Notes under the pieces: model-generated
Told to the model about the DNA's origin: nothing
The model's input: only the letters and a program-made list of their open reading frames with translations
The model's database searches: none
Made by a program: the position numbers and the translations under genes
NCBI RefSeq assembly: GCF_015277515.1
Contig: NZ_CP063767.1
Location: forward strand, 1,798,001-1,862,000
DNA length: 64,000 nt
Source: Thermophilibacter immobilis
Lineage (GTDB): Bacteria > Actinomycetota > Coriobacteriia > Coriobacteriales > Atopobiaceae
Direction of reading: 5' to 3'
Shown here: one piece after another, positions 10,001 through 41,445 of the stretch
Numbering within the stretch: position 1 is the first letter of the stretch
Layout of the letters: every line of letters starts with the position of its first letter

Positions 10001-10438
10001 ATGGCAGGTTCGAGCTCGTACAAGGCCAAGCAGATGATCGTCATGCGGCGCGACCTCAAGATGCGCAAGGGCAAGATCGCCGCCCAGGCCGGGCACGCCT
10101 GCGTCGAGGCCATCCTTCTGGCGCTCGTGCGCGAGGGGCGCTCCGGCGAGCTGCGCGCGGAGGACGACTGGGTCCGAATCGAGCACGACGAGGATGACCG
10201 CTCCCCGCTCACCGACTGGTTCGACGCCGGCGTGGCCAAGGTCTGCGTCTACGTGGACTCCGAGGAAGAGCTGCTCGACCTCGCCCAGAGGGGTCGTGAA
10301 CAGGGCTTTGTGGTAGCCCTCGTACGCGACGCGGGCTACACCGAGTTCCACGGCGAGCCCACCTACACCTGCCTGGCCTTCGAGCCGCTCCCCGCCGACG
10401 TCATCGACCCCCTCACCGGCGAACTGCCGCTGTACTAG
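10001..10438 (+). CDS. pth2: Peptidyl-tRNA hydrolase, Pth2 type
   Basis: 145 residues matching the archaeal/eukaryotic Pth2 fold rather than the usual bacterial Pth: KQMIVMRRDLKMRKGKIAAQ near the start, then AGHACVEA, and DAGYTEFHGEPTYTCLA towards the end, with the conserved Lys and Asp and the D-x-G-x-T-E element. It releases tRNA from prematurely dropped peptidyl-tRNA. It sits directly behind the CDF gene and ahead of a hairpin terminator. Confidence 0.88.
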   Translation: MAGSSSYKAKQMIVMRRDLKMRKGKIAAQAGHACVEAILLALVREGRSGELRAEDDWVRIEHDEDDRSPLTDWFDAGVAKVCVYVDSEEELLDLAQRGREQGFVVALVRDAGYTEFHGEPTYTCLAFEPLPADVIDPLTGELPLY

Positions 10439-10469: not shown

Positions 10470-10719
10470 TTCCGGGTTTGGGTTCGCGGGAAGGGGTTCA
10501 CACAAGAACCCTTTTGAACTCTCCGATTCTTATCTGGCGTTTCTCAACGATAGTAACTAGGCTACTTGCACTATCGCCTGTGCCCGAACCCAAGCTCGAT
10601 ATAGAGTTTGGGTTCGGGCTCGCATCCCCTTCGGTGATGACATCAAAATTCACTTCTTTTACCTGCAGAAACTCCACAGGGCATACTTTCCCCTCCCCCG
10701 TTGCGAACCCAAACCCGAA
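10470..10719. repeat. Intergenic cluster of GAACCCAAACCC-type palindromic repeats
   Basis: Three related units lie in the 450-base gap between pth2 and cysK. CCGGGTTTGGGTTCGC begins at 10472 and its near-exact complement GCGAACCCAAACCCG begins at 10704, giving a long-range inverted pair. Between them, 10582-10619 is an almost perfect 38-base palindrome with arms GCCCGAACCCAAGCTC and GAGTTTGGGTTCGGGC. The same core recurs inside a coding sequence near 40.1 kb. The remainder of the gap holds nothing recognisable except the cysK leader. Confidence 0.8.
10491..10515 (+). terminator. Hairpin terminator after pth2
   Basis: AAGGGGTTC (491-499) pairs with GAACCCTTT (506-514) around a 6-base loop and ends in a short TTTT, 53 bases after the pth2 stop. 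Confidence 0.5.
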
Positions 10720-10891: not shown

Positions 10892-11803
10892 ATGCGTACC
10901 GCACGCAAGATTGAGGCCCTCATCGGCTCCACGCCCCTCGTGGATCTTTCCGACCTCACCAGCAACTCCGTAACGATCCTCGGCAAGTACGAGGCCACCA
11001 ACCCCGGCGGGTCCATCAAGGATCGCATCGCCGCCGCGATGGTCGACGACGCCGAGCGCCAGGGGCTTCTTGCCCCCGGGGGCACCATCATCGAGCCCAC
11101 GAGCGGAAACACCGGCGTCGGCCTGGCCATGGTGGCCGCCGCACGCGGATACAAGCTCATCCTCACCATGCCCGAGACCATGAGCGTCGAGCGCCGCAAG
11201 CTCGCCGCCGCCTACGGTGCCACCATCGAGCTCACCCCCGGCGCGGACGGCATGCGCGGTGCCGTGGAGCGCGCCGAGAAGCTCAAGGCCTCCATCCCCG
11301 GCTCCATCATCGCCGGGCAGTTCACCAACCCCGCCAATCCCCAGGCCCACTACGAGACCACCGGCCCGGAGATCTGGCGCGACACCGAGGGCACGGTCGA
11401 CGTGCTCATAGCCGGCGTGGGCACGGGCGGCACCATCTCCGGCGCCGCACGCTTCCTCAAGGAGAAGAACCCTAGCGTGCGCGCCGTGGCCGTGGAGCCC
11501 GACGAGTCGCAGGTTCTCGCCGGCAAGCCGGCCGGCGGCCACAAGATTCAGGGCATCGGTGCCAACTTCGTGCCGGACAACTTCGATCGCTCCGTGGTGG
11601 ACGAGATTCTGCCTGTGACCTCAGGTGACGCCGTGGCCACCAAGGCACGTCTGGCCAAGGAGGCCGGCCTCCTGGTGGGAATCTCCTCGGGAGCCGCCGT
11701 GGCGGCCGCCCTCGCGCTGGCCGAGCGCCCCGAACTCGCGGGGAGGGCCATCGTCGCGATTCTGCCCGACACGGGCGAGCGATACCTCTCCATGGACCTC
11801 TAA
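10892..11803 (+). CDS. cysK: Cysteine synthase (O-acetylserine sulfhydrylase)
   Basis: 303 residues. PLP enzyme making cysteine from O-acetylserine and sulfide. Seen: NPGGSIKDR with the PLP-binding lysine near residue 41, EPTSGNTG for substrate and cofactor contact, and GVGTGGTISG for phosphate binding. The ATG at 10892 sits 5 bases behind AAGGAGG. It is followed after one base by cysE, so the pair forms an operon and the proteins can assemble into the cysteine synthase complex. Confidence 0.95.
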   Translation: MRTARKIEALIGSTPLVDLSDLTSNSVTILGKYEATNPGGSIKDRIAAAMVDDAERQGLLAPGGTIIEPTSGNTGVGLAMVAAARGYKLILTMPETMSVERRKLAAAYGATIELTPGADGMRGAVERAEKLKASIPGSIIAGQFTNPANPQAHYETTGPEIWRDTEGTVDVLIAGVGTGGTISGAARFLKEKNPSVRAVAVEPDESQVLAGKPAGGHKIQGIGANFVPDNFDRSVVDEILPVTSGDAVATKARLAKEAGLLVGISSGAAVAAALALAERPELAGRAIVAILPDTGERYLSMDL

Positions 11804-12419: not shown

Positions 12420-12482
12420 GACCATACCCGAACGTCGGTTTCGGGGCCGATTTGGTACCGTTTTTGGCGTTCGGGTATGGTC
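12420..12482. repeat. 63-bp palindromic repeat, copy A
   Basis: Terminal arms GACCATACCCGAACG (12420-12434) and CGTTCGGGTATGGTC (12468-12482) are perfect 15-base inverted repeats around 33 internal bases. The arms are identical to those of the copies at 28373 and 29568; the interior aligns best (19/33) when this copy is inverted. It starts 12 bases after the cysE stop and lies between convergent genes, so it may also act as a bidirectional terminator, though it lacks a U-tract. Confidence 0.9.
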
Positions 12483-28356: not shown

Positions 28357-28372
28357 AGCGAGCTACTTTTCC

Positions 28373-28435
28373 GACCATACCCGAACGCCAGATTCAGGCC
28401 CAAAACTCACCCGAATATGGCGTTCGGGTATGGTC
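28373..28435. repeat. 63-bp palindromic repeat, copy B
   Basis: Arms GACCATACCCGAACG (28373-28387) and CGTTCGGGTATGGTC (28421-28435) with 33 bases between. 54 of 63 positions match copy C at 29568 in the same orientation. It lies between convergent stops (28356 and 28440). Confidence 0.92.
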
Positions 28436-28439
28436 GACG

Positions 28440-29375: not shown

Positions 29376-29567
29376 GGGATGAGCGTACACGAGAGGCCTC
29401 TCGGCTCGCTTTCCCTGACCTGCCCGCATTCTCCCCCACCCTTATCGCAATCTGACAGGCTCGACTTTTCAGACCCGCAGACCAAGGGGTCTGTGACGAT
29501 AGCAAAAAATGCAACCTGTATGATTGAAGCGACCGCAGTAACCTGACTTCACATAGTCTCGATAACC

Positions 29568-29630
29568 GACCATACCCGAACGCCTAATTCAGGGTCAAAG
29601 CTCACTCGAATCAAGCGTTCGGGTATGGTC
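29568..29630. repeat. 63-bp palindromic repeat, copy C
   Basis: Arms GACCATACCCGAACG (29568-29582) and CGTTCGGGTATGGTC (29616-29630), 33 bases between. Same orientation as copy B. It lies in the divergent gap between the endonuclease-like gene and the HAD gene, so here it cannot serve simply as a 3' terminator. The remaining intergenic sequence 29376-29692 shows nothing else. Confidence 0.92.
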
Positions 29631-29692
29631 GGCAAAGTAGCAGCCCACCACGCGCTATCCTTAGGGCCCCCGGACGCAAGAAGGAGAGCAGC

Positions 29693-39636: not shown

Positions 39637-41445
39637 ATGCCCACGATCACCCCTGGCAACCGCCTCTATCTGTACCAGCTCCTCTCGAACGAGCTTGGCG
39701 TGGGCGCACAGACTGCCCTCGCCCGCGTGGAGGAGGTTCTCGCGAAGGACGACCTTGCCCCTGCGGACCTCGGGTTCGCCGACACTCGCTCCCTCTGCGA
39801 GGCCCTGCCCGAGTTCCTCAGGGTCACCGCCTTCAAGAAGGGCTACGTCTACGCAACGGTCCATGCCTGCGAGGACTACGACCGGGCCCTCGAGGGCCCT
39901 GCCAACGGCGCGAGCAGCAAGAGCGCGGCGAACGGCAAGCCCTGGAAGCGTCGCAAGGAGGCCAAGGGCCTGCGACCAGTCAAGCCGCGTCCCACCGAGA
40001 AGCCCAAGGAGGCGACGCCGTCCACCCCCGAGGCCTTATCCGAGCCCCAGCGCATAGCTGAACCCAAACCCTCCCACGAATTTGGGTCCGTGCCTGGGGC
40101 CGAGCAAAGCGAAGCTGAACCCAAACCCGATATCGGGTTTGGGTCCGAGGCGGAGCCCGAGGGAGAACCCAAACCGGAGGCAGCCGGCGCATCCGCGACC
40201 GCGCTCGAGCCTGCGCTGGTAGCCGACCCCACATCCGCAACGCAGACCGAGCCTGCGGCCGCGTCGGAACCCAAACCCGAGGGGGAGCCTCGGCGCGCAC
40301 CCGTCTTTGGATCGCCTGAGCCCTCGATCTCCCTCACCATCACCTACGTTCCCGAGCAGAAGGAGGGCGAGGCCGAACCCAAACCCGCCGCGGCACGCGT
40401 CGACGAGCCCGCAACTGCACACACGGCGCGGTCCTCCATGCCGTCCACGACGCACGCCCCCAGCGGACCCCCTCAGGACTTCCATGCCGAGGTGCGCTCC
40501 CCCAATGAGCAGCTCAGCCTCCTCTACCAGCTGCTGCCGCCCACCGTCGATCCCCTGACCACGCTCGAGGAGGACTTCCGCGTGGCCCGCTCAACCCACA
40601 CGCTCGAGGGGACGCGCAGCGAGGTCACGTTCCCCCTGCGCTTCCTGCGTGCTGACGGCTCGACGCCTGTCACGGCCACCCTGCGCCGCTCGGTCAAGGC
40701 ACAGGGTGGCAAGTTCTGGTCGCTCGCCTCGGTGGACGGCGCCGATCCCGACGAGGTGGGCCTCGAGGGCCTCGCCCCTCGCCCGGCCGGCGCGTGGGCC
40801 GCCTTTCTCCCCCAGCGGAAGCTGCCCGTCGATGCCGTGGACCCCGAGCGCGCCCTCACGCAGACCGTGTCGCTCGGCCCCTGGGACGAGGCGCTCCAAG
40901 ACCTCGCCTCCCTTGCCGCGCCCGAGGACTGGGGCGCGGACCGCAGCGTCCTGCGTGCCTACCTCATCATGACCTTCGCGCGCGTCCAGGCCCAGGGGCT
41001 TCTCGCCGTGGCTCCGGACGGATCGCGCGCGGAGTTCGACACGGGCCTTCTCACCTCTGCGGGCGCGGCCGTCTACGCACGTCTCGAACCGCTGGACGGC
41101 GACATCCCCTGGGAGCTCGCTGCCTTTGCCACCGGGGGCTCCGCCCGACCCGCGCGCTACGCGACCTCTCTCGCCCAGGTGACGCTCGATTCCAGCCTGC
41201 CTGCCCCCGCCTTTGCGGCCGCACCGCTCGTGGAGAGAAGCCCGCGCACCGCGACCTGCGCCTACGACGCAATCGCCGACGACGTCAGGCTGCTCGTCCC
41301 GGCAGACGACGGCCGCGCGCTCGCCCTTGCGGCCACGCCCTCCGGCTACGAGGTCGCAGCCACCCTCGAGCTTGCCGACGCCTACGCCTGCGCGCGCGTG
41401 GTGAGCGCGGAGCAGCCCTCCTGGCTCACGGCCGGGCTCGCCTAG
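39637..41445 (+). CDS. DUF3825-domain protein with repeat-rich linker
   Basis: 602 residues. Residues 1-85 form a small helical domain ([21 protein letters not shown]) of unknown type, possibly RNA-binding. Residues 95-300 are a Pro/Ala/Glu/Lys linker in which EPKP recurs, twice as AEPKP followed by GFGS-like stretches. Residues 310-end match DUF3825 ([25 protein letters not shown] and [17 protein letters not shown]). The linker is partly encoded by palindromic repeats at 40060-40387 also found intergenically at 10.5 kb. In that stretch Glu and Lys use GAA and AAA, unlike the GAG/AAG used elsewhere in the gene. Function unknown. Confidence 0.75.
40060..40387. repeat. GAACCCAAACCC palindromic repeats inside a coding sequence
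   Basis: The core GAACCCAAACC occurs five times in 330 bases (40060, 40117, 40165, 40267, 40375). At 40117-40146 it forms a 30-base palindrome (GAACCCAAACCCGAT followed by its near complement ATCGGGTTTGGGTCC); at 40060-40089 it is a looser hairpin. All copies are in frame and encode E-P-K-P, with F-G-S from the other arm. Confidence 0.85.

Follow-up and report, generated by a model that had tools for sequence, protein, structure and literature searches.

Phased inverted half-sites around a common core in a DNA element of Thermophilibacter and other Atopobiaceae

The repeat word GAACCCAAACCC is not a scattered palindrome but forms part of a DNA element that is widespread in the Atopobiaceae. 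One unit consists of GGGTTTGGGTTC (reverse half-site), an interior and GAACCCAAACCC (forward half-site), and units occurred singly or two in tandem, the facing halves of neighbours reading GAACCCAAACCC-N5/6-GGGTTTGGGTTC. The palindrome on which a preliminary description of this DNA had centred is the back-to-back junction of two such longer units. Interiors had no sequence in common between loci except a core and a short edge beside the arms; this core, GCAAAACCGCAGGTAA, was recovered by an unsupervised motif search of the interiors.

The window analysed is a stretch of 64,000 nucleotides (G000:C1:1798001-1862000) from Thermophilibacter immobilis, whose 2.16-Mb single-contig genome (G000) is the first of the 31 genus genomes considered in this work (G000-G030); its relatives are Thermophilibacter gallinarum, Olsenella sp. 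An270, Candidatus Olsenella stercoravium and other Atopobiaceae. All the repeats reported in the preliminary description were present in the window, far above chance: nine matches to GAACCCAAACCC with at most one mismatch were obtained vs. 0.18 expected, and none of 100 shuffles reached nine. Genome-wide, 27 exact copies were counted vs. 2 for the reversed-pattern control. Exact copies amounted to about 45 in each of G004 and G015, were fewer in G003, G013, G027 and G028, and were few or absent in the remainder of the 31 genomes. The assignment of the repeat to a coriobacterium was correct; it is a DNA-level, genome-wide word (Thermophilibacter/"Olsenella", Atopobiaceae). In a scan of 84,980 species genomes the palindrome was confined to Atopobiaceae records and one Collinsella-labelled contig. 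The palindrome stood in an identical gene neighbourhood in three bins, two of uncultured Olsenella and one of Collinsella (L115, L120, L136); this is probably one locus, possibly through a binning error. Neither palindrome nor unit was found in viral contigs, and a phage or viral origin was discarded on that account.

The intergenic two-unit array of the window (10474..10716) lies between a PTH2-family gene (10001-10438) and a cysK-like gene (10892-11803), both flanks being named by Pfam. Its half-sites run -, +, -, + with spacings of 112, 18, and 101 bp. The first unit extends from an exact half-site on the minus strand (10474..10485) to one with two mismatches on the plus strand (10586..10597), and contains the core motif GAGAAACGCCAGATAA on the minus strand (10530..10545; PWM score 14.0), 40 bp inside its 5' arm. 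The second begins with a minus-strand half-site with one mismatch (10604..10615) and ends with an exact plus-strand one (10705..10716), its core GAGTTTCTGCAGGTAA being placed 30 bp inside the 5' arm (10659..10674, minus strand; PWM score 12.4). The half-sites at 10586-10597 and 10604-10615 form together a 38-bp palindrome (10582-10619) that is 89% perfect.

Distances within units followed the DNA helix. Start-to-start spacings of 81 units from seven Thermophilibacter-group genomes fell at 59, 69, 80-82, 90-93, 101-103, and 112-114 bp, with a single one at 186. The best period was 10.55 bp (R = 0.918, n = 81; null maximum of 0.357 across 2000 smooth random sets); this set contains orthologous pairs, and the phasing signal persisted within single genomes, with a spacing R above 0.91 for each of G000, G004, and G015 taken singly. 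The core was helically phased to both arms, its distance being 30 bp (in some units 20 or 40) to the 5' arm and in most cases 23, 33 or 43-44 bp to the 3' arm. Chromosomal loci with phased units numbered a dozen or more per genome. Helical phasing of this kind is a strong in-silico sign of proteins that hold two DNA sites across a short loop.

Units were also conserved in place between species. Between G004 and G015, 22 orthologous units showed a difference of 0.76% in the arms and of 14.8% in the remaining interior (Fisher P = 5.5e-26); since the units were selected by motif, ascertainment explains part of the arm conservation, although the permitted mismatch was far above the observed difference. 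The core differed by 8.9% vs. 14.8% for the remaining interior (P = 0.008), and spacing was identical in 21 of the 22. Arms, core, and spacing are thus kept in place. At some positions that distant species have in common, unit length differed by close to whole turns: the unit 3' of one same gene measured about 102 bp in G000, 69 in G003, and 58 in G013, and the unit after ffh 112 bp in G004, G015, and G003 vs. 102 in G013. At one locus the array was found in G003, G004, G015, G027, and G028 and was missing from G013, G024, G030, G010, and G000; gains and losses of arrays were left uncounted because the one-gene genus tree was poorly resolved.

The same core was found between other arms. The gap between lspA and rluD holds GAACCC arrays in G003 and G027, and in other species the same core between different inverted arms (e.g., AATAACACGCAGAATC, GCATCGTCTGTATTT, and GAGTGCGCGAAA). 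A scan of 90 loci, and then of fresh stretches of 11 genomes, gave more core-plus-arm elements, some with arms of 20-34 bp. Arms unrelated to GAACCC were present in 29 non-redundant elements, and in these the core-to-dyad offset displayed a period of 5.25 bp (R = 0.77), which is the prediction from phasing of both arms. The core lay exactly at the dyad in 10 of 15 elements absent from the building of the core model (binomial P = 1e-10); related arms are shared by a few of these elements, which reduces the effective number somewhat. In another genus, g34, GGCTTAATTGCA...TGCAATTAAG was searched as a pattern and gave 14 distinct units, all 14 with an interior of 61 bp and an offset of +1.0. When the 17-bp extended core alone was used for the search, centred arms recurred in g34, g5, and G008; this extended core was present in 18 of 397 genomes of the order. 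In the icd gap the arms were nested and mirrored (inner equal to inner, outer equal to outer) while their sequence differed between species, and an inverted element of G015 was missing in its sister G004. Which arm word is used depends on lineage or locus: part of the Thermophilibacter group carries GAACCCAAACCC, g34 carries GGCTTAATTGCA, and other words occur elsewhere, while the core is common.

Most arrays began 8-45 bp 3' of a stop codon, with gene ends and starts taken from a simple codon-usage gene finder and not from annotation, and lay between convergent or tandem genes; few were situated between divergent promoters. The flanking genes were housekeeping ones with no common pathway. A two-unit array of G000 (L103; G000:1927451-1927674) separates rplX from rplE, as named from their translations, a position which argues against a role as an efficient terminator.

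We propose, with confidence a little better than even, that the units are dyad-symmetric double-stranded protein sites that bend or loop DNA. Each unit would offer a double-stranded platform for a roughly dyad-symmetric nucleoprotein complex, in which a common factor would bind the central core (consensus near TATATCCGCAGGTAA/AAAACCGCAGGTAA) and probably bend it, and a second protein would bind both inverted arms and bridge them across the bend; because of this bridging, each arm would occupy a fixed helix face relative to the core. In tandem units, adjacent complexes may touch via the back-to-back palindrome. Since the neighbouring housekeeping genes are unrelated and arrays mostly follow stop codons, the role that we regard as likeliest for the arrays is in local chromosome architecture or in insulating transcription units from each other, and not in the control of a single pathway. 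The HU/IHF family (PF00216) was found in none of the 31 genus genomes, with 9 of 14 control genomes positive, so that a bender of the core would have to be other than HU/IHF. Against a looping platform count the many unrelated arm sequences, which are hard to explain with few proteins, the patchy presence at orthologous gaps, which could mean mobility, and the copies inside a DUF3825 gene, which are coreless and only partly on the spacing rule. The variety of arms is the most vulnerable point of this reading, since proteins that read them would need many specificities; should self-complementarity as such be what is maintained (by template switching, for instance), binding would not be required for part of the arm matching. 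On a wider scale, and with rather less than even confidence, the elements may represent a family-wide chromosome-organising element of the Atopobiaceae, and perhaps of other Coriobacteriales, in a genus without recognisable HU: a central core, helix-locked inverted arms free to change together, and a candidate architectural protein system as reader. The phased units raise the questions of how bacteria without HU organise their DNA locally and of what keeps arms that change in sequence matched to each other. The sequences show the anatomy of the repeat, its phasing, the core, the conservation in place and the generality of a core with inverted arms, anatomy and phasing being strong; proteins, bending, looping and role are what we infer from them.

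The patchy distribution would also agree with miniature inverted-repeat mobile elements, in which the arms would be transposase ends and the core an internal bending site for end synapsis; only helically phased lengths could then move, and the elements would resemble the Correia elements of Neisseria. This explanation, which we hold to be unlikely though worth retaining, accounts for presence and absence at orthologous gaps, including the G015 inverted element without a counterpart in G004, for copies in tandem, and for their siting in intergenic DNA and coding linkers. However, interiors within one genome are not homologous beyond the core and the inner arm edge, the arms have been kept in place far more than the interiors, viral contigs carry no matching element, and the outer flanks of single units, judged by eye, look mirrored and not duplicated as target sites. 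Unit ends that meet in tandem arrays are likewise mirrored, not repeated, and a target duplication of 5-6 bp at these junctions was discarded. The earlier idea of a 30-base palindrome comparable to the Rickettsia elements found no support, the interiors not being copies of one mobile sequence and arms, core, and spacing being kept in place. Correia elements carry an integration-host-factor site between terminal repeats and are intergenic or intragenic (PMC2229807). The units have in common with them and with MITEs in general a short length, inverted ends, an internal conserved motif, and intergenic or intragenic positions; inverted arms and core are present, the core being a putative site for an architectural protein. 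They differ in having no common interior, no target duplication seen, many arm words per core, and quantised lengths.

In the Gal repressosome, two operators about 100 bp apart are helically phased and flank an architectural site. The units match this geometry, with a helically phased pair of inverted sites approximately 90-112 bp apart and a central site, and one locus has an arm in the -35 position, 11 bp upstream of a TATAAT box. Each arm word could thus be the operator of one regulator, the core serving as a shared architectural site at many looped promoters. We consider this improbable, because most arrays are found within 45 bp downstream of stops, many of them between convergent or tandem housekeeping genes, and because a single word occurs at unrelated genes and also inside coding sequence. 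In contrast to a Gal-type loop, the units recur dozens of times beside unrelated housekeeping genes and mostly away from promoters, in a genus where no HU homologue was found. A promoter within the core was also considered and set aside, no -35/-10 pair being visible by eye.

The inverted arms, the position of many elements after stop codons, the co-variation of mirrored arms at the icd gap and the good folding of some long-arm variants would all suit hairpins in transcripts, in which the arms would pair in RNA as terminators or 3'-end stabilisers. Nevertheless, GAACCC interiors did not fold as RNA (z = -0.01, n = 54), the distances to the left and the right arm were often unequal yet phased at 10.5 bp, one array occupies the rplX-rplE gap, and Rfam gave no match at the gathering threshold except tRNAs, the window hits being of chance level only. 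The unfolded interiors, the unequal yet phased distances and the lack of an Rfam family favour recognition of double-stranded DNA, and transcribed hairpins appear very improbable.

No described repeat family that was compared fits the units, whose anatomy fails the defining features of the families tested. REP units consist of a self-palindrome of 20-40 bp with a GTAG/CGTC tag (PMC3733652). Like REP/BIME sequences, the units are dispersed intergenic repeats of alternating orientation, often after stops and between convergent genes; in contrast, their half-sites are not hairpins, carry no GTAG/CGTC tag, and are defined by helical spacing and the core. A REP/BIME system with RAYT was rejected, as Y1_Tnp (PF01797) is missing in the motif-bearing G000 and G013 and present in many motif-free species. 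Phased arm sites on either side of a core are reminiscent of a lambda-type attP; tyrosine-integrase att sites were rejected as well, the motif-rich G003 and G004 holding only two Phage_integrase genes (PF00589) each, presumably XerC/XerD. A search of the literature on such repeats in Coriobacteriia found nothing.

In the window the word also occurs in frame within a gene, as had been described. This DUF3825 gene (PF12873; 39637..41445, plus strand; 602 aa; Pfam E = 8.1e-17) carries the sites in its Glu-Pro-rich linker and has matches in 30 of the 31 genus genomes. The first exact half-site, encoding EPKP (40060..40071, plus strand), is followed at 18 bp by a degenerate facing half-site with three mismatches (40078..40089, minus strand). 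The 30-bp palindrome of the preliminary description (40117..40146) is a back-to-back pair, formed by an exact copy of GAACCCAAACCC at 40117 and a reverse copy with one mismatch at 40135; its 26-bp centre (40119-40144) is perfect and one mismatched pair lies outside this centre. Further plus-strand half-sites appear at 40165..40176 (one mismatch), 40267..40278 (exact; 132 bp from the reverse half at 40135, i.e., 12 turns + 6) and 40375..40386 (exact), thus giving four exact copies and one with a single mismatch. A possible decayed facing half-site, GTCTTTGGATCG (40303..40314, minus strand), with five mismatches and encoding VFGS, is a weak reading of the sequence. Unusual codons had been pointed out in these sites, and indeed all five AAA and six of the eight GAA codons of the gene fall inside them (the gene also holds 43 GAG and 15 AAG; GAA/GAG is 10/273 and AAA/AAG 4/157 in eight other window genes pooled).

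In-frame occurrence was not restricted to this gene, the word being also found in the dnaX tau linker of G004, G015, and G027. When DUF3825 orthologues were compared, as had been suggested, those of the other genus genomes had linkers of Glu-Pro repeats and yielded no exact site, with a reading frame not cleanly recovered at some loci; the G000 copies are therefore lineage-specific. No recognisable core motif was detected among the in-gene arms, and only some of the spacings (39 and 132) obeyed the helical rule. The copies in the DUF3825 gene are a lineage-specific offshoot without the core, and the arm sites may have arisen, or been recruited, within a Glu-Pro linker whose codons tolerated them. 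This case indicates that a non-coding, probably protein-binding word can enter a coding linker in frame. In-frame mobile palindromes comparable to those of Rickettsia, as first proposed, would suit the in-frame copies in two gene families but are hardly credible, since the palindrome is a mere junction of two units with ends fixed by helical phase and no free-standing palindromic insert, most copies are intergenic, and interiors are unrelated.

Other repeats were observed in the same genomes. A second inverted-repeat family of G000 has GACCATACCCGAACG arms of 15-19 bp, a loop of 27-33, and no core inside; three copies lie in the window (12420-12482, 28372-28436, and 29566-29632). Words of the type CCATACCCGAAC numbered about 10 in 264 kb. 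Upstream of a 454-aa gene (L174, L179, and L181; G008, G007, and G029), long near-perfect GACAAAGGTGACAGG hairpins without the core were present. GGCGAGAAGAACG (and GGCGAGAAGGACG) was strongly enriched, at about 6-13 per 100 kb, in stretches of G004, G007, and G028 (L255-L259, L283-L292); it is similar to the upstream half of GAGAAGAACCGCAGG, the extended core, and frequently stood close to promoters, that of the 454-aa gene among them.
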